NCBI GenBank assembly: GCA_000525675.1
Contig: CP002190.1
Location: 2,108,001-2,172,000, forward strand
Direction: 5' to 3'
Length of the DNA: 64,000 nucleotides
Source of the DNA: Bdellovibrio bacteriovorus W
GTDB lineage: Bacteria > Bdellovibrionota > Bdellovibrionia > Bdellovibrionales > Bdellovibrionaceae
The notes under the pieces were generated by a model. It did not search any database, was not told the DNA's origin, and was given only the letters and a program-made list of their open reading frames with translations. A program made the translations under genes and the position numbers. Of the stretch, positions 30,704-45,109 are shown in pieces (the stretch's first letter is position 1; each line of letters starts with the position of its first letter).

Positions 30704-31412
30704 GTGGCTGTTCCTTAGTTTCTTTTTTGTTATACTCAGCGCGAATCTTTTCTTCTTGTTGCTTCAACTCGTCGAGAATCTTTTTTACATCAGCTTCATT
30801 GAGCTGCTCACCTTGATAAGGGCGCGGCTGATATTTCGGAGACTGTTTCTTTTGTCCTTCTTTAGGCTCATCTTCCTTCTTATCTTCACCGTCTTCATCT
30901 TGATCTTTTTGATCTTGATTCTGATCACCCTTGTCATCTTTTTTATCGTTCTTACCTTTTCCGCCCCCTTGTTGGGATTGAATCAGAAGTTCGATATTTG
31001 TCTTTGTTTCCATGGAATTAGGAATCACATCCAAAGCGGCTTGGTATGCAGCTAATGCTTCGTCCACCTTCTGCGCTTTGCCCAAAAGCTGTCCCTGATT
31101 AAATCTTGCCATGAAGACAAGCTCTGGAGCTCCCTCTTTAAGAGCCAGAGTCTCTGCCTCTTTATAGGCTTGCAGAGCTTTTTCAGCTTGCTGCAAAGTC
31201 TCTAAAGAAAGTCCTAAATTCAAATGCAAGCCGCTCACAAAGGGATCGTGGCGCAAGGCTTCGATGTACTTTTCCATCGCAGCTGCCCCAGATTGTTTTT
31301 CTAAGAACGCATTCCCCTCGCGATTGGCAGTGATAGTTCTTAAATCCAAATTCTTCTGGCAAGCAGACAGACTTAAAATACAAATTAGTAAGAGTGATAA
31401 TTTTCTAATCAT
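30687..31412 (-). CDS. TPR lipoprotein of the Bat operon (BatC/BatE-like)
   Basis: A 241-aa lipoprotein (signal MIRKLSLLLICILSLSAC, lipobox LSAC). Residues 30-150 contain TPR repeats, for example SGLHLNLGLSLETLQQAEKALQAYKEA and MARFNQGQLLGKAQKVDEALAAYQAAL. The next 50 residues are an extremely charged, low-complexity linker rich in Lys, Asp, Glu and Gln. The C-terminus is helical. This plan, TPRs followed by an acidic/basic tail, matches BatC-type proteins in MoxR operons. The next gene starts before it ends, overlapping by 17 bases with batD. Confidence 0.82.
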   Translation of the reverse strand: MIRKLSLLLICILSLSACQKNLDLRTITANREGNAFLEKQSGAAAMEKYIEALRHDPFVSGLHLNLGLSLETLQQAEKALQAYKEAETLALKEGAPELVFMARFNQGQLLGKAQKVDEALAAYQAALDVIPNSMETKTNIELLIQSQQGGGKGKNDKKDDKGDQNQDQKDQDEDGEDKKEDEPKEGQKKQSPKYQPRPYQGEQLNEADVKKILDELKQQEEKIRAEYNKKETKEQPRDKDW

Positions 31413-32473
31413 GCTGGTGGCACCTCATAACGGCCTTTCCAGAAACGGAAGCGACTGCGACGTTCACCTAAAAATATCTCTAAAATACCTAGGATAATTC
31501 CCACTAATAAAATAGCTTGAAAGCGCTCTTCGTATTGAGTCGCTACAGCGCTCTCAAACTGAGTTTTCTCAAGTTTATCGATATCTTCAACAAGGTGACG
31601 AGTCTGCTGTCCTCCGAAAGTTGCAAAATAAAAACTTCCCTTGCCAGCCTCGGCCAATGATTTTAGCGCCTCTCCTTTGACAATCGAAAGAATCGTATTG
31701 CCTTGGCGGTCTTTCTTATAACCTTTTAAAAAGCCCATTCCATCACGAACTGGAATTGCGCCACCTTTTTCTGTTCCATAAGCTAAAGTGAAAATTCGAA
31801 TGCCTTCACTGACCATCTTTTTCGCTTCATCTAAAGCACCTGGTTCATGATCTTCACCGTCCGAAGCCATCACAATGACTCGTGTGACTTTAACGACGTC
31901 ATCCGTGTCGACTCCCCCACGCTGAAAGGCTTCTTTAGAGGCCTTCAGAGCTTCTAAAAAATTAGTTCCTTGCGTGGAAACAGAGTTCGTATCTAAAGAC
32001 TCCAAATACATTTTGATCGCACCAGGGTCATTGGTCAGAGGAGATAGCAATGCCGCCGATCCGGCAAAAGCAACCACACCGATCTTATTACCAGGCATCA
32101 AATCCACTAAGCGACTCAACTCTGCCTTGGCCTGTGCTAAGCGCGAAGGCTTTACATCTTCGGCGAGCATACTCTCAGAAACGTCCACGGCAAAAATGAT
32201 CTCTACACCCTCACTGCGAATTTCTTGCTGACTTTCACCCATTTGCGGACGAGCTAAAGCCAGAATAAATAAACCCACTGTCAAAAGTTGCAGAATTTGT
32301 TTTAAACGACGTTTTTTCGGAGATACTGAACTACTTAAAAAAGGATAAAGACGACTACCAATGGCCTTGGTCATCTTCTGCAAATTCTTTCTCTGGAAAT
32401 ACCAACCGATGACAACGATCAGTGGCAAAACCCAGAGGTAATTGAATGCCGTTAAGTTTTCAAAGCGAAACAC
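31409..32473 (-). CDS. batB: BatB-like von Willebrand factor A membrane protein
   Basis: A 354-aa protein with two N-terminal membrane segments (FNYLWVLPLIVVIGWYF near residue 10, and LLTVGLFILALARP near residue 63), a VWA domain and a C-terminal membrane helix (ILLVGIILGILEIFL). The metal site (MIDAS) reads IIFAVDVSESMLAEDVKP (DxSxS), with GTNF and ASDGEDHE supplying the other residues. It is the second of two adjacent VWA proteins, the usual pair batA-batB, and overlaps the TPR gene by 4 bases. Binding partners and role are unknown; the family is proposed to be a chaperone-like complex with MoxR. Confidence 0.9.
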   Translation of the reverse strand: MFRFENLTAFNYLWVLPLIVVIGWYFQRKNLQKMTKAIGSRLYPFLSSSVSPKKRRLKQILQLLTVGLFILALARPQMGESQQEIRSEGVEIIFAVDVSESMLAEDVKPSRLAQAKAELSRLVDLMPGNKIGVVAFAGSAALLSPLTNDPGAIKMYLESLDTNSVSTQGTNFLEALKASKEAFQRGGVDTDDVVKVTRVIVMASDGEDHEPGALDEAKKMVSEGIRIFTLAYGTEKGGAIPVRDGMGFLKGYKKDRQGNTILSIVKGEALKSLAEAGKGSFYFATFGGQQTRHLVEDIDKLEKTQFESAVATQYEERFQAILLVGIILGILEIFLGERRSRFRFWKGRYEVPPA

Positions 32474-34382: not shown

Positions 34383-35251
34383 TATTTTCTCTTCTTAAAG
34401 AACGCTATCAACGGATTGACGTAGTCCTCGCTCGACTTCACATCAATGCGTTCCACTTGAGCAAGTCTCAGAAGACGATCTCTTTGCTCTTTCTTTTTCA
34501 AAACTTCACTTAAATATTTTTCGCGAAACTCTTTAGAGGAGGTATCAATTGTGATCACCTCTCCGGTTTCTGCATCTTGAACATCGACTACGCCAATATC
34601 GGGAAGCTCGTACTCTGCAGCATCATTCACCACACAAGCTACGACATCATGCTTACGCCCCAAAAGACGTAAACTCTGCTCAAAACTCTCGTCTTGGAAG
34701 TCACTAAACACAAAGACCGTCGCGCGCTTTTTCAAAACCCCTTGAAGGTACGAAAACGCAGTCGCAAGTTTCGTTCTTTGACTCTTAGGTTTAAAATAAA
34801 ATAAATCACGAAGAAGTCGGTGTACGTGGCCACGCCCTTTTTTCGGCGGAACAAAGTGTTCAACTTGATCACTGAATAAGAGCAACCCTATCTGGTCATT
34901 GTTCTTCACTGCCGAAAAAGCTAGAAGTGCTGCCATATGAGTCATCACTTCACCTTTAAAATAAGGCCCTGTTCCGAAATCACTGGAACCACTGATGTCG
35001 ATCGCAAGAATGAGCGTGAGTTCACGCTCTTCTTCGAAAGTCTTAATATACGGTTTTCCGGTGCGCGCTGTGAGCGGCCAAGAAATACTGCGCACATCAT
35101 CACCAGGGACATATTCGCGGAAATCGGCAAAAGTCATCCCCTGACCTTTAAAAGCGGTGTGATACTCTCCTGCAAAAAGATTGTTCACAAGCTTTCGGGT
35201 ACTGATCTCTAAAAGTTTGACCTTTTTTAAGACCTCAGGAGGTAAACTCAC
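34382..35251 (-). CDS. DUF58 domain protein (VWA-like fold)
   Basis: A 289-aa cytoplasmic protein. The DUF58 core reads TFADFREYVPGDDVRSISWPLTARTGKPYIKTFEEERELTL, then the VWA-type Asp-Ser in LILAIDISGSSDFG, and further FVFSDFQDE and VVACVVNDAAE. Family members link MoxR ATPases to the VWA proteins in the same operon; their activity is unknown. It lies directly between moxR (one-base overlap) and the DUF4381-like gene. Confidence 0.92.
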   Translation of the reverse strand: MSLPPEVLKKVKLLEISTRKLVNNLFAGEYHTAFKGQGMTFADFREYVPGDDVRSISWPLTARTGKPYIKTFEEERELTLILAIDISGSSDFGTGPYFKGEVMTHMAALLAFSAVKNNDQIGLLLFSDQVEHFVPPKKGRGHVHRLLRDLFYFKPKSQRTKLATAFSYLQGVLKKRATVFVFSDFQDESFEQSLRLLGRKHDVVACVVNDAAEYELPDIGVVDVQDAETGEVITIDTSSKEFREKYLSEVLKKKEQRDRLLRLAQVERIDVKSSEDYVNPLIAFFKKRK

Positions 35252-36243
35252 TATGGCACCTCAACCTGACTCAAGATATCTTTGATGATATCGTCAGTGC
35301 GAATATTTTCAGCTTCTGCTTCGTAAGTTAAAATCAAACGATGACGAAGTACGTGGTAAGCAATGGCCTTCACATCTTCCACAGTCACATAACCACGACC
35401 ACGAATAAATGCATGAGCTTTAGCGGCTCTGAATAAACTGATCGTTGCACGCGGAGATCCACCCACATTGATAAGATTAGCAATGCGCCCTAATCCGTAT
35501 TCAGAAGGACTGCGAGAAGCCATGATGATATCAACGATATAGTTTTTAATCTTCGCATCAACATAGATTTGATCCGCACGCGCCGAAGCTCGCAAAAGAT
35601 CTTCTTTAGAAATCACCGATTGAACTTCTGGCTTTTCATTTGTTCCCATGCGATTGAGGATTTCTAACTCATCCCCTTTTCCTGGATAGTCCACGTTAAT
35701 TTTAAACATGAAACGGTCCATCTGAGCCTCTGGTAACGGATAGGTTCCCTCTTGCTCCAAGGGATTCTGAGTCGCCAAAACCAAGAATGGAGTTGCCAAA
35801 CGATAAGACTCTTCACCGATAGTGACTTGTTTCTCTGCCATTGCCTCAAGCAGTGCAGATTGCACTTTTGCTGGCGCACGATTGATCTCGTCGGCTAAAA
35901 CGATATTTGTGAAAATTGGCCCCTTGCGTGGCGCGAACTCTCCTGATTTTGGATTGAAGATCATCGTACCGATTAAATCGGTCGGCAATAAATCCGGCGT
36001 GAACTGAATACGCTGAAAATCCAAAGAGATGGATTTGGAAACCGTTGCAATGGTCAAAGTCTTTGCAAGACCTGGGACACCTTCCAACAGGATATGGCCG
36101 CCCGTGAGAAGCCCCATCATGATGCCTTCCACCATTTCTTTTTGACCAACAACCACCTTATTGATCTCAGCCATCATTTTTTCGATGAATTGACTTTCCT
36201 GCTTAATGGCAGCGTTTAACGCCATGATATCCACTTCACTCAC
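35251..36243 (-). CDS. moxR: MoxR family AAA+ ATPase
   Basis: A 330-aa AAA+ protein, first gene of the operon. The GTG at 36243 is chosen because AGGAGG lies 7 bases upstream; the frame is open to 36321. Walker A is HILLEGVPGLAKTLTI, Walker B VLADEINRAPAKVQSALLEAM (DE), and the sensor FLVLATQNPLEQEGTYPLPEAQMDRF; sensor 2 is near GSPRATISLFR. MoxR ATPases act as chaperones with the VWA proteins that follow. A 29-bp inverted repeat (36287-36400) lies just upstream of the ribosome site. Confidence 0.95.
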   Translation of the reverse strand: MSEVDIMALNAAIKQESQFIEKMMAEINKVVVGQKEMVEGIMMGLLTGGHILLEGVPGLAKTLTIATVSKSISLDFQRIQFTPDLLPTDLIGTMIFNPKSGEFAPRKGPIFTNIVLADEINRAPAKVQSALLEAMAEKQVTIGEESYRLATPFLVLATQNPLEQEGTYPLPEAQMDRFMFKINVDYPGKGDELEILNRMGTNEKPEVQSVISKEDLLRASARADQIYVDAKIKNYIVDIIMASRSPSEYGLGRIANLINVGGSPRATISLFRAAKAHAFIRGRGYVTVEDVKAIAYHVLRHRLILTYEAEAENIRTDDIIKDILSQVEVP

Positions 36244-36286
36244 GATGCAACCTCCTGAACTTCTCCCAATCGACCAGCCCTCGGGG

Positions 36287-36400
36287 TTGCAAAAGAATCT
36301 TAGACAGTTACAAAACCTCAAACAGTCCTCGCTTACGCTCTCCCTTCGGGAATCGCTGCTGCGGAACTCGATTTTGTAACTGTCTAAGATTCTTTTGCAA
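36287..36400. repeat. 114-bp palindromic element with perfect 29-bp inverted arms
   Basis: The left arm is 36287-36315 (starts TTGCAAAAGAATCTTAGACA) and the right arm is 36372-36400, its exact reverse complement. The 56-base centre is itself GC-rich with short repeats (CTCGCTTACG, TTCGGGAATCGCTGC). It is between the moxR start and the HtpX-like gene, and it would be transcribed as a very stable hairpin in the moxR leader. It could be a small mobile (MITE-like) element or a leader structure; no target duplication was found. Confidence 0.8.
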
Positions 36401-36519
36401 ATCCTCTAGACACTGTTCTCTATTTCACAATTTTCATAAGAACTTCGCAAGCTTAGACTTTGTAGAGCAGTGCTTCCTCTACTCTTGCCAAGGAAGAAAT
36501 ATCGTGGGACAAAAAATAT

Positions 36520-37332
36520 ATGATAAATAACACTACAAAAGTCTGGATCTTCATTCTAACGACGTCTCTTGCTTTCCTTATCTTCGGATACAAGATGGGA
36601 GATCGCTTAGGACTTCTTATTGGTTTTGCGACAGCCTTCACTCTGAATTTCTTCGTTTTCTTTTACGGTGAATCACGCATCTTAGGAAAACTCAAAGCTC
36701 ATCGCCTGAAAGGTCAAGACGCTTGGGGGTTGCACGCTATCGTTGAGCGTTTTTGCTCTCAGCTAAGAATGCCCACACCTTCTATCCATGTAGTTCACCA
36801 TGAATCAGTGAATGCTTTTTGCGTAGGGCATACTTGGAAGCGCAGTTCTTTGGGATTTACAACAGGCATGCTGGACCGTCTGTCTTCGAATGAACTAGAG
36901 GCAGTTATTGCCCATCAACTTTGCCACATCCGTCGCCTTGATACTTTTGCATTTAGCGTGAGCAGCACTCTAGCCAATGCCGTTGTTGGCGTTGGACAAT
37001 TTTTAGATAGCCTCATTCCTTACAAAACACATTTCTTCCGTTCTCTCTTTTCTCCTCTAGGATGGCTCATCATCAAAGGAGTGGTTGGCCAAAGATCTTT
37101 TTTTGAAAACGACAGAATGGCCTCAACTCTTCTTTCAGACCGCCAGCAGCTTGGCGAAGTGTTATGGCGCATTGAAGGCCTTGCTCAAACCAATCCATTG
37201 GAAGTGCCTCCTTGCACAAGTCATCTTTTCATAGTGAACCCCGAAGGCATTCAACAAAAGAATTTGTTTTTAAAATCCCATCCTTCGATTGAGAATAGAC
37301 TGCAAAGATTGATGGGGTATTATCCAATTTAA
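36520..37332 (+). CDS. HtpX/M48-like membrane protein with altered zinc motif
   Basis: A 270-aa protein with two N-terminal membrane helices (residues 10-50) like HtpX, followed by a domain with PTPSIHVVHHESVNAFCVGHTW and SLGFTTGMLDRLSSNELEAVIAHQLCHIRRLDTF. In active M48 proteases this last segment is HExxH; here the codons read CAT CAA CTT TGC CAC, giving HQLCH, so the catalytic Glu is Gln. A later Glu, in FFENDRMAS, corresponds to the third zinc ligand. The two His and this Glu could still bind zinc, but proteolysis is doubtful. It stands alone between the moxR element and the DUF1844 gene. Confidence 0.8.
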   Translation: MINNTTKVWIFILTTSLAFLIFGYKMGDRLGLLIGFATAFTLNFFVFFYGESRILGKLKAHRLKGQDAWGLHAIVERFCSQLRMPTPSIHVVHHESVNAFCVGHTWKRSSLGFTTGMLDRLSSNELEAVIAHQLCHIRRLDTFAFSVSSTLANAVVGVGQFLDSLIPYKTHFFRSLFSPLGWLIIKGVVGQRSFFENDRMASTLLSDRQQLGEVLWRIEGLAQTNPLEVPPCTSHLFIVNPEGIQQKNLFLKSHPSIENRLQRLMGYYPI

Positions 37333-40004: not shown

Positions 40005-40080
40005 TGGGGTGTCGACAAGTTGGTAAGTCAACAGATTTTGATTCTGTCATTCGCAGGTTCGAGTCCTGCCACCCCATCCA
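40005..40080 (+). tRNA. tRNA-Gln (TTG anticodon)
   Basis: A complete cloverleaf: acceptor TGGGGTG pairs with CACCCCA, D arm TCGACAAGTTGGTAAGTCA, anticodon stem ACAGA/TCTGT with loop TTTTGAT (anticodon TTG, Gln), variable CATTC, T arm GCAGGTTCGAGTCCTGC, and CCA encoded at the 3' end (40078-40080). Discriminator base T73 is unusual but allowed. It marks the end of the core region: an ISL3 transposase gene and accessory genes follow directly. tRNA genes are common integration sites; no second copy of the 3' end is seen in the window. Confidence 0.97.
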
Positions 40081-40170: not shown

Positions 40171-41355
40171 TCATAAACTTAGCAAGCGAAGCCTGTAGTT
40201 TTTAAAGCTTCTAAATCCGAAAGCTCGCTTCTGCAACAGTTTTGCGAGATTATTAAAGCCTTCTGTTCTTCCGTTAGTTAAACCCGTTATAAAGTAATTT
40301 AAGATCTCTGTTTTCCATTTCATTAGCGTTTTTCGAAGTTTTTTGATCTCAGGCAACGAAGACAAAGCCATGCGATCAAGGATACCGATCAGCGCCCTGC
40401 GGGCGCGATCGACCCCGCGACAGCGGTAGAGCCCATGCAAGGCTTCTTTAAAGTGATAGAGTTCTTTGAGCTTCGGATGATGATCGAGCCATTCATGTAA
40501 AGCGCGACGCTCAAAATATTCTAATTTTTTCTTCCCGTTCATCAGCAATAGTTTTCGAACAGGATTACTGCGCTTGTCGCCCGTGATTTCTGTGCGGGCT
40601 TTGTTAATCATGGGATTTAGCAAACGAATCACATGAAAATGATCCGCAACTAAACGCGCTTGTGGGAAAAACTCTTTGGCAAACTTCTTAAACGGGTCGC
40701 TCATATCTAGAACTACGTTTTTCACGCGATCCCGCCCAGGAACATCAGCAAATGTGTATGCCAATCCATCAGCAGTTTTACCAAGAGCTATTTCAAAGAT
40801 TTTCTTCTTAGGATAATCAATTAAGATCGTAGCAAACTCGCGATTCCTAAAACCTCGTTTAAAGGAATGCTCATCAATTCCTATGGTCGTGGGCCAAGGG
40901 TTCTCCTTGCGTTCGCGCAGCTTTAACTCCAGTTGTTCGTAAAATATTTTATAAACAGTTCCTGCCGAACATCCAAAAGCCTGCTGCACACGCTTTAAAT
41001 CTTGGAAGTTCTCACAAGCCCACTTAATCCCCCGACGATAACGATGAGTTGTTCTAAAGCCTTTACGTACGCCACTAACGGGCTCTGTGAAGACTTTCTT
41101 GCATCCTGGACACCGAAACCGACGTTTTAATATGTTTAAATAAATGCCCGATCCACGAATCGGTTGGTCCTTAACCTTAACCCACCTCCGATCGTGGACA
41201 GAGTAGGACTTCGTTGCGCACTTGGGGCAGACTTCGAATTCTGACTCTTTGGCACACTTATATTGTGTTCGGAATTTATCACTTTGCCAGTGAGTTATGA
41301 TTTTTAATTCTGGCAAGAGGATGAATTTAGACGTAGATTTCCATTTGGGATCCAT
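40171..41355 (-). CDS. ISL3-family transposase
   Basis: About 395 aa from the ATG at 41355 (MDPKWKSTSK); the frame is open to 41394. N-terminal zinc motif CPKCATKSYSVHDRRW and CPGCKKVF, then the DDE domain with GIDEHSFKRGF (D), LVADHFHVIRL (D) and NGRTEGFNN (E). The length and these motifs are those of ISL3-family transposases. The IS ends could not be defined: the flanks (40081-40170 and 41356-41440) hold no good inverted repeats that I can see. It seems intact. Confidence 0.9.
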   Translation of the reverse strand: MDPKWKSTSKFILLPELKIITHWQSDKFRTQYKCAKESEFEVCPKCATKSYSVHDRRWVKVKDQPIRGSGIYLNILKRRFRCPGCKKVFTEPVSGVRKGFRTTHRYRRGIKWACENFQDLKRVQQAFGCSAGTVYKIFYEQLELKLRERKENPWPTTIGIDEHSFKRGFRNREFATILIDYPKKKIFEIALGKTADGLAYTFADVPGRDRVKNVVLDMSDPFKKFAKEFFPQARLVADHFHVIRLLNPMINKARTEITGDKRSNPVRKLLLMNGKKKLEYFERRALHEWLDHHPKLKELYHFKEALHGLYRCRGVDRARRALIGILDRMALSSLPEIKKLRKTLMKWKTEILNYFITGLTNGRTEGFNNLAKLLQKRAFGFRSFKNYRLRLLSL

Positions 41356-41462
41356 TAGTGACACCTGCTTTCTTAGATTTTGCTTCGTAACCAAATCTTA
41401 AGAAATTTGTGTAATTAACTGGATCCCTTTTTATTTCAGGTCCTAACGCCTAGCATTCCACC

Positions 41463-44764: not shown

Positions 44765-44830
44765 TGCGCAAGATCTTACGCACATTAGCCATAGCAAAAA
44801 GAGAAAATCAAGTGCGTAAGATCTTTTGCA
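44765..44830. promoter_or_regulatory. paired inverted operators between divergent XRE genes
   Basis: A 19-base element (44765-44783) is repeated in inverse at 44812-44830 with only two mismatches. Each copy is an imperfect palindrome around AAGATCTT, with GC outside. The two copies are 28 bases apart and flank both promoters, so one or both XRE proteins probably bind them. Confidence 0.6.
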
Positions 44831-44851: not shown

Positions 44852-45109
44852 ATGGCTTTGAAGAAGGGAACCAGTTTAATTACGACTGCAGACAAAAAGG
44901 TGCTGTTAAAACTTGGACGCACAATCAAGGAAGTTCGGGAATCAAAAGGGCTCAGCGTCTATGATGTTACTGGTGAAGACATGCCAATCAAATCTCGGCA
45001 GCATTGGCAAAAGATTGAAGCTGGGCAACTAAGTTTAACGTTTGTTACTTTTCTAAAAATTACTAAAACGCTAAACCAATCCCCTTCTTCTATTTTGGAA
45101 AACTTGTAA
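44852..45109 (+). CDS. small XRE-type HTH regulator
   Basis: An 85-aa protein with almost nothing but a helix-turn-helix domain: LLKLGRTIKEVRESKGLSVYDVTGEDMPIKSRQHWQKIEAGQLSLTFVTFLKITKTL. A strong ribosome site (TTGGAGGTAAAGCT) precedes the ATG. It lies directly upstream of the split HEPN gene (49 bases), which suggests a regulator-toxin or regulator-defence arrangement. It is divergent from the larger XRE gene. Confidence 0.85.
   Translation: MALKKGTSLITTADKKVLLKLGRTIKEVRESKGLSVYDVTGEDMPIKSRQHWQKIEAGQLSLTFVTFLKITKTLNQSPSSILENL

Follow-up and report, generated by a model that had tools for sequence, protein, structure and literature searches.

The moxR-bat genes of Bdellovibrio bacteriovorus W lie within the analyzed window, a stretch of 64,000 nucleotides of contig CP002190.1 (positions 2,108,001 to 2,172,000) to which all plain coordinates below refer. 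The order of the genes is MoxR, a DUF58 protein, one protein without Pfam match, two proteins of the VWA/BatA type, a TPR protein and BatD, which fits the operon of seven genes that had been proposed in an earlier note on this DNA. The divergent gene beside the operon encodes an M48 peptidase. Upstream of moxR an inverted repeat was found, consisting of two 29-nt arms with 100% complementarity and a spacing of 56 nt (Table 1). The earlier note had described exactly these arms and this centre, with a distance of 44 bases to the start codon; the element is indeed located upstream of moxR, but its 3′ edge is 43 nt away from the probable GTG start. A scan of the whole window for inverted repeats (at least 16 nt, arms at most 250 nt apart) yielded 12 pairs, among which this one is the longest and the sole perfect pair of more than 19 nt, and thus the strongest of its kind. 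A 22-mer of the arm, searched with up to three mismatches, matches only two sites of the window, namely both arms (0.00 expected by chance). The RNA of the minus strand, which is the moxR strand, is predicted to fold with −63 kcal/mol (z −11.4) and that of the plus strand with −54.1 kcal/mol (z −9.9), and for either strand 0 of 200 shuffled sequences were as low. Elsewhere in the window, a spaced inverted repeat of 19 nt (89% complementary, 28 nt apart) is located at 44765-44830 upstream of an open reading frame starting at 44852, and an open reading frame resembling an ISL3-type transposase by eye (40171-41394) adjoins a tRNA gene at 40005-40077.

Table 1. Features of the inverted repeat and of the moxR upstream region, listed in the direction of moxR transcription.
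Feature	Position in the window	Strand	Remarks
Putative −35 of moxR, TTGCGA	36445..36450	−	Assigned by eye; partly conserved in the genus
Putative −10 of moxR, TGAAAT within GTGAAAT	36422..36427	−	GTGAAAT in 24/24 genomes
Hairpin 5′ arm (read on the moxR strand)	36372..36400	−	29/29 complementary to 36287-36315
Conserved tip, 5′ half, CGAGTTCCGCAGC	36358..36370	−	(Nearly) invariant in the 56-copy alignment
Variable apical hairpin P2	36333..36357	−	Length and sequence vary among copies; covaries, 5/6 pairs changed on both sides
Conserved tip, 3′ half, GCGAGGACTGTTTGAG	36317..36332	−	GCGAGG and TGT invariant in 56 copies
Hairpin 3′ arm	36287..36315	−	Complementary to the 5′ arm
Tail CCCCGAGGGCT, immediately outside the 3′ arm	36276..36286	−	Weak motif
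Shine-Dalgarno sequence AGGAGG of moxR	36251..36256	−	Outside the hairpin, left free
moxR, probable GTG start at 36243	35251..36243	−	AAA_3 and AAA_lid_2 domains

The gene moxR with its upstream DNA is present in all 24 genomes of the genus. The distance between the GTGAAAT box and the start codon is 33-38 nt in 21 of them and 61 and 64 nt in genomes G008 and G015, respectively. In the window's genome it is 185 nt, with the element lying between the box and the ribosome-binding site. The candidate promoter TTGCGA-17-TGAAAT is thus located upstream of the element; a consensus promoter scan of 36200-36560 detected none, the moxR box included. With the box upstream and the ribosome-binding site downstream, the element should be transcribed, probably as part of the moxR leader and beginning about 15 nt past the transcription start estimated from the box. 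This anatomy supports the leader hairpin on the transcript that had been considered before. In the same region (36200-36560) no terminator-like site was found on either strand, and since no U-tract follows the 3′ arm, the element is no ordinary terminator.

The inverted repeat is real, but the part that recurs is its 56-nt centre and not the arms, which the earlier note had overlooked. When the 3.0 Mb closed genome was searched with the whole element, the centre was found at four further places, whereas the arms were found only here, apart from weak partial matches (E of about 2 and above). The search for further copies of the arm that had been suggested there consequently misses the family. 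A query with the 61-base core gave 61 places in 15 of 39 genomes, all belonging to one genus. They were retrieved as 57 loci, in which a script found 60 core matches; L113 without a core match and L112 with a spurious partial match were left out, so that 59 copies remained. In 58 of these, found by their tips, the tip sits in long self-complementary arms of locus-specific sequence. Only the core served as query for this first collection, so the search itself did not create the arms. The exception is L090 in genome G006 (G006:C1:2406799), which has lost its 3′ arm relative to the orthologs L069 and L070. L090 is located before a prpB-like gene, its tip is enlarged, and it represents a natural one-arm deletion. 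L086, L089 (plus strand) and L090 contain additional hairpins in the 3′ tip half, inserted behind GCGAGGA.

With the covariance model R1, copies were detected in 23 of the 24 genomes of the genus, including 8 in the window's genome and 22 in G006, which we take to be strain HD100. In the order, 44 of 140 genomes (19 of 65 genera) carry copies, and under stricter filters 46 of 368 sampled genomes of the phylum (20 of 181 genera). The weaker matches of R1 represent longer-loop classes with spans of about 117 and 150 nt, which show the same two tip halves and paired arms, and in distant families the minimal form is arm-CGAGUUCCGCAGC-GAA-GCGAGGACUGUCUGAGC-arm. The exact tip pattern was found in ten stretches among 84,980 species genomes, all of them from Bdellovibrio sp. 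Outside the 3′ arm, a weak tail motif, CGAGRGC, was noted; among 98 arm clusters, 7 have it in their 3′ flank and 1 in its 5′ flank.

For the analysis of the structure, 56 copies were aligned with MAFFT without structural information (alignment A1), and the consensus fold was calculated by RNAalifold, resulting in one long hairpin. Both sides have changed in 23 of the 24 pairs in the arms, and in P2 this applies to 5 of 6 pairs. The covariation score of A1 is 0.545 compared to 0.174 for shuffled alignments, of which 0 of 500 reach this value. Sliding the pairing by +1 column lowers the score to 0.191 and by −1 column to 0.361, the latter because two sub-types differ by one base in register. 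With base pairs that are backed by changes on both sides, the family is a structured RNA element in this sense. The stem comprises 25-45 bp of locus-specific sequence and carries the conserved tip, with the consensus 5′ CRAGUUCCRCAGC ... GCGAGGACUGUYYGA 3′. In the consensus structure AGU(U)CC pairs with GGACU; an internal loop, GCA/GA, is conserved, and a further loop, GUYYGA, is asymmetric. Because there is little variation in the tip pairs, the covariation is no test of them. The tip pairing given by RNAfold differs in detail from the consensus of the alignment; in L165, AGU(U)CCUCAAG stands opposite CUUGAGGACU, a predicted pairing that favors the consensus register.

At positions 12-23 from the tip, 98% of the pairs over 98 arm clusters are Watson-Crick pairs. 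Together with substitutions that are mostly double, this shows that the pairing is generally maintained in the family, and it is to this extent that the perfect match of the moxR arms, taken before as a sign of recent origin or strong selection, can be read. Comparing orthologs whose arms could be aligned (18 comparisons), we counted 40 double changes from one Watson-Crick pair to another against 11 single changes of the wobble type and 14 others. Step-wise compensation should leave more intermediates, so that the excess of double changes points to arm-to-arm copying, one arm being copied from the other as a simple alternative. A chance palindrome or an assembly artefact, finally, has a negligible probability and was ruled out by the covariation and by the independent copies that 23 of the 24 genomes in the genus contain.

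The arms also give an indication of the folding strand. If a DNA cruciform were formed, both strands would fold, and a G.T on one would be an A.C on the other without a preferred side. Within 36 bp of the tip in the 98 arm clusters, wobbles read on the core strand comprise 74 G.U and 15 A.C (p 1.5e-10), with 48 clusters leaning to G.U and 9 to A.C. The ratio of G.U to A.C is 36:1 at 4-11 from the tip, 35:13 at 12-35 and 13:12 beyond 36, and amounts to 56:13 at positions 8-35. With regard to the gene on the 3′ side, it is 18:0 in sense and 22:6 in antisense copies. Folding of the gene strand was therefore rejected, as the bias is towards the core strand in antisense copies, too. A replication strand bias as the source of the excess was rejected as well, because it is seen both in copies running with replication (7:1) and in those running against it (33:5), which argues against a mutation bias. 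The excess on the core strand indicates that a single-stranded copy of this strand is what folds, and the folding molecule is most likely RNA and less likely DNA. The 18 ortholog comparisons provide counter-evidence, as the single changes there comprise 4 from Watson-Crick to G.U and 7 from Watson-Crick to A.C, and the G.U bias is not repeated.

The placement of the copies was determined for 60 of them, with genes called by our own codon-usage caller and by aragorn. Of these, 50 have distinct arms; since orthologous copies are among the counts of placement and replication, these counts are not independent. The copies are polar with respect to gene edges, as an edge lies within 20 nt of the 3′ side in 29 of 50 distinct copies, but of the 5′ side in only 2 of 50. 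In 28 of 50 copies the 3′ side lies behind stop codons or tRNAs of opposite orientation (median 8 nt), and in 22 of 50 before start codons (median 51 nt). Gene 3′ ends are found at a median distance of 8 nt on the 3′ side and 225 nt on the 5′ side (p 2e-6), gene 5′ ends at 51 and 187 nt (p 4e-5). For 9 of the 60 copies, a tRNA gene reaches with its 3′ end 6-31 nt into the 3′ arm. The same genes carry copies in several species, including thiolase-, RpoN-, PdxH-, AhcY- and L7/L12-like genes (named by eye) and tRNA-Leu; the thiolase gap, for example, contains a copy in nine genomes (L077, L080, L081, L088, L093, L105, L106, L107, and L109). These copies at the same gene often belong to different loop classes and have arms that are unrelated.

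Upstream of the copies as a whole, sigma70-like promoters are not conspicuous (mean score 7.53 versus 7.75 shuffled, with 22 of 60 above their own shuffles). The promoter-likeness is higher for sense copies, i.e., leaders, than for antisense copies (p 0.011). At the latter no promoter is evident upstream, so that RNA there would need read-through or divergent transcription.

The position behind stop codons and over tRNA ends could also be expected if the element were a 3′-end device of the gene that ends there, i.e., a terminator or stabilizing hairpin read on the gene's own strand. The loops of the long copies L176, L178, L203, and L221 even hold a terminator-like hairpin with a T-run on the gene strand; termination inside the loop, however, would leave the gene's own RNA without the second arm. 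The wobble bias lies on the opposite strand, the antisense copies included, L185, L195, and L231 already have a separate terminator-like hairpin ahead of the element, and leader copies such as that of moxR stay unexplained. We therefore consider such a device improbable. If the copies were genes for small RNAs that act in trans and share the tip, this would account for the conserved tip, the variable arms and the strand-specific structure, but it is very unlikely in view of antisense copies without upstream promoter, the little space between the flanking genes and the fixed placement at gene edges.

At moxR, the element occupies the position between box and ribosome-binding site only in this species (1 of 24 genomes). 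As it is missing at the same position in the other 23, it was gained here. In genomes G010 and G019, different copies are inserted on the upstream side of the box, 92 and 95 nt ahead of the start codon. When filled and empty sites were compared by eye, the leader proved too diverged to call any target-site duplication. In another species a copy (L196, G023:C1:1095720-1101835) lies directly behind a Bat-type VWA gene, whose product ends with ...GRYEVPPA like that of the window gene 31409-32473; the same operon has thus acquired copies more than once.

The gain at moxR is what a selfish dispersed hairpin of the MITE or REP kind would produce, moved by an enzyme with one strand as its substrate, in the form of single-stranded DNA or RNA, and with arms made or remade by copying. 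This is the main rival explanation. It is consistent with the prevalence of double over single changes between orthologs and with the direction relative to replication, since 59 of 82 places in 12 closed genomes run against it (14 places in opposed pairs set aside); the window's genome (3 with, 1 against) and G015 (6 with, 2 against) nevertheless lean the other way. In the window's genome the inner arms of L057, L058, and L060 are alike by eye (L057/L058 with a script score of 13, random best 10). Apart from a few partial matches, however, arms are unshared within a genome; the best similarity score is 14 over 34 bases (random best 10), and few copy pairs score above random. Across the genus, copies persist at the same gene ends, and the arms remain paired in 58 of 59 copies; a selfish unit would not need this once inserted. 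A protein with the Y1_Tnp domain (PF01797, RAYT type), which was found in 5 of 14 controls, is absent from the window's genome, the only one to which this search refers. On balance, a selfish element is rather unlikely. Copies in back-to-back pairs, separated by a few hundred bases and with their 5′ sides turned towards each other, were observed at G000:C1:778491-779049, at L076, L103, L104, and L089, and at L149; these pairs sit between convergent or divergent genes.

At curated thresholds, Rfam models matched only tRNAs in the window and ten further loci, and a permissive scan of five loci of the window's genome gave only sub-threshold matches (best E 0.51). In viral contigs the exact tip pattern with a loop of 2-32 nt had no match, and neither had phages and plasmids in a distant blastn search. 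The HD100 copies listed do not overlap the eight AP-specific small RNAs of this strain in Table 2 of PMC3627812. In the open-licence literature, including PMC3627812, PMC8632094, and PMC2267715, no description of the hairpin family was found; a description elsewhere is possible, but the family is apparently undescribed so far. In three species (L212, L218, and L225) a conserved stretch of about 220 nt lies between a flgI-like gene (by eye) and the element and ends in a terminator-like hairpin with a T-run, possibly a small RNA gene; L212 and L218 have no Rfam match at the gathering score.

Several known elements resemble the family in part. REP stems are conserved in sequence and associated with RAYT transposases. 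The Bdellovibrio stems, in contrast, differ from copy to copy beneath a conserved tip, do not form a conserved palindromic stem, and are also placed before start codons, and the genome of the window lacks the Y1_Tnp protein mentioned above. Stem-loop families repeated in intergenic DNA likewise share the stem sequence, which the Bdellovibrio stems do not. Long hairpins are also known from the ompA-type 5′ stem-loop stabilizers, close to mRNA 5′ ends, and from I-shaped terminators without U-tract, at the borders of transcripts; unlike the Bdellovibrio family, they are not known to have a conserved tip that is common to unrelated genes. Integron attC sites resemble the family in folding of one strand, bulges and a variable terminal loop, but keep their outer boxes, whereas here the outer arms are variable and the inner part is conserved. 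The attC boxes RYYYAAC/GTTRRRY were not seen by eye in the conserved part. MITEs, which had been suggested for the moxR repeat, are similarly short and non-coding, with inverted repeats and single-lineage gains. The gain at moxR supports this part of the suggestion, but the family has no conserved terminal repeats, and its arms are locus-specific and differ between copies. Like the REP/BIME elements of enterobacteria and Pseudomonas, the copies are dispersed, extragenic and hairpin-forming, often located just after stop codons and sometimes in divergent pairs. A likeness also exists to the repeated stem-loop families in intergenic DNA of bacterial genomes (PMC2267715), although Bdellovibrio does not appear in the main text of that study.

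The core strand, when single-stranded, can form a long stem with a conserved tip; its arms are kept paired, and wobbles are tolerated on this strand only. Common to both contexts is that RNA of the core strand heads for the 3′-side gene. If the hairpin halted, cleaved or shielded this RNA, the placement, the strand and the conservation would be accounted for. Our tentative preference, for which the odds seem somewhat less than even, is therefore that the family is a dispersed RNA hairpin acting in cis, by which transcription into a gene is gated, processed or insulated. It would act on transcripts heading to the 3′-side gene. Where the copy follows a stop codon or a tRNA end, these transcripts would be antisense, and the entry of antisense or read-through RNA into the gene would be limited by the hairpin, through an RNase III cut, pausing or termination without a U-tract. 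For a stem of 30-40 bp, RNase III is a natural candidate. Before start codons, as at moxR, the hairpin would be part of the mRNA leader, ending ahead of the Shine-Dalgarno sequence, where the 5′ end would be shielded or processed by it and expression of the moxR-bat operon could be adjusted. The tip would presumably be read by a protein or an RNase. An argument against this cis-acting hairpin is that the operon would be silenced if the moxR leader contained an unconditional terminator. The moxR copy gained in the lineage of this species shows that the family also spreads.

A broader formulation is doubtful, namely that the family represents a class of polar "gene-edge" RNA elements of the Bdellovibrionota. 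Its members would have a conserved tip and arms renewed together by copying of one from the other, which would keep the stem perfect in spite of its drifting sequence, and would gate RNA synthesis or decay at the gene edge on their 3′ side, acting against antisense RNA at gene ends and within leaders at gene starts. Since the arms change in concert, the family is a natural test of how long perfect palindromes stay perfect. The filled and empty sites at moxR, together with the one-arm deletion at the prpB-like gene, make a function testable. Should the element act in cis as RNA, then a strand-specific hairpin, absent from the annotation resources searched, recurs in predatory bacteria at the edges of housekeeping genes such as those for sigma-54, L7/L12, S-adenosylhomocysteine hydrolase, and thiolase (all named by eye), as well as tRNA-Leu.
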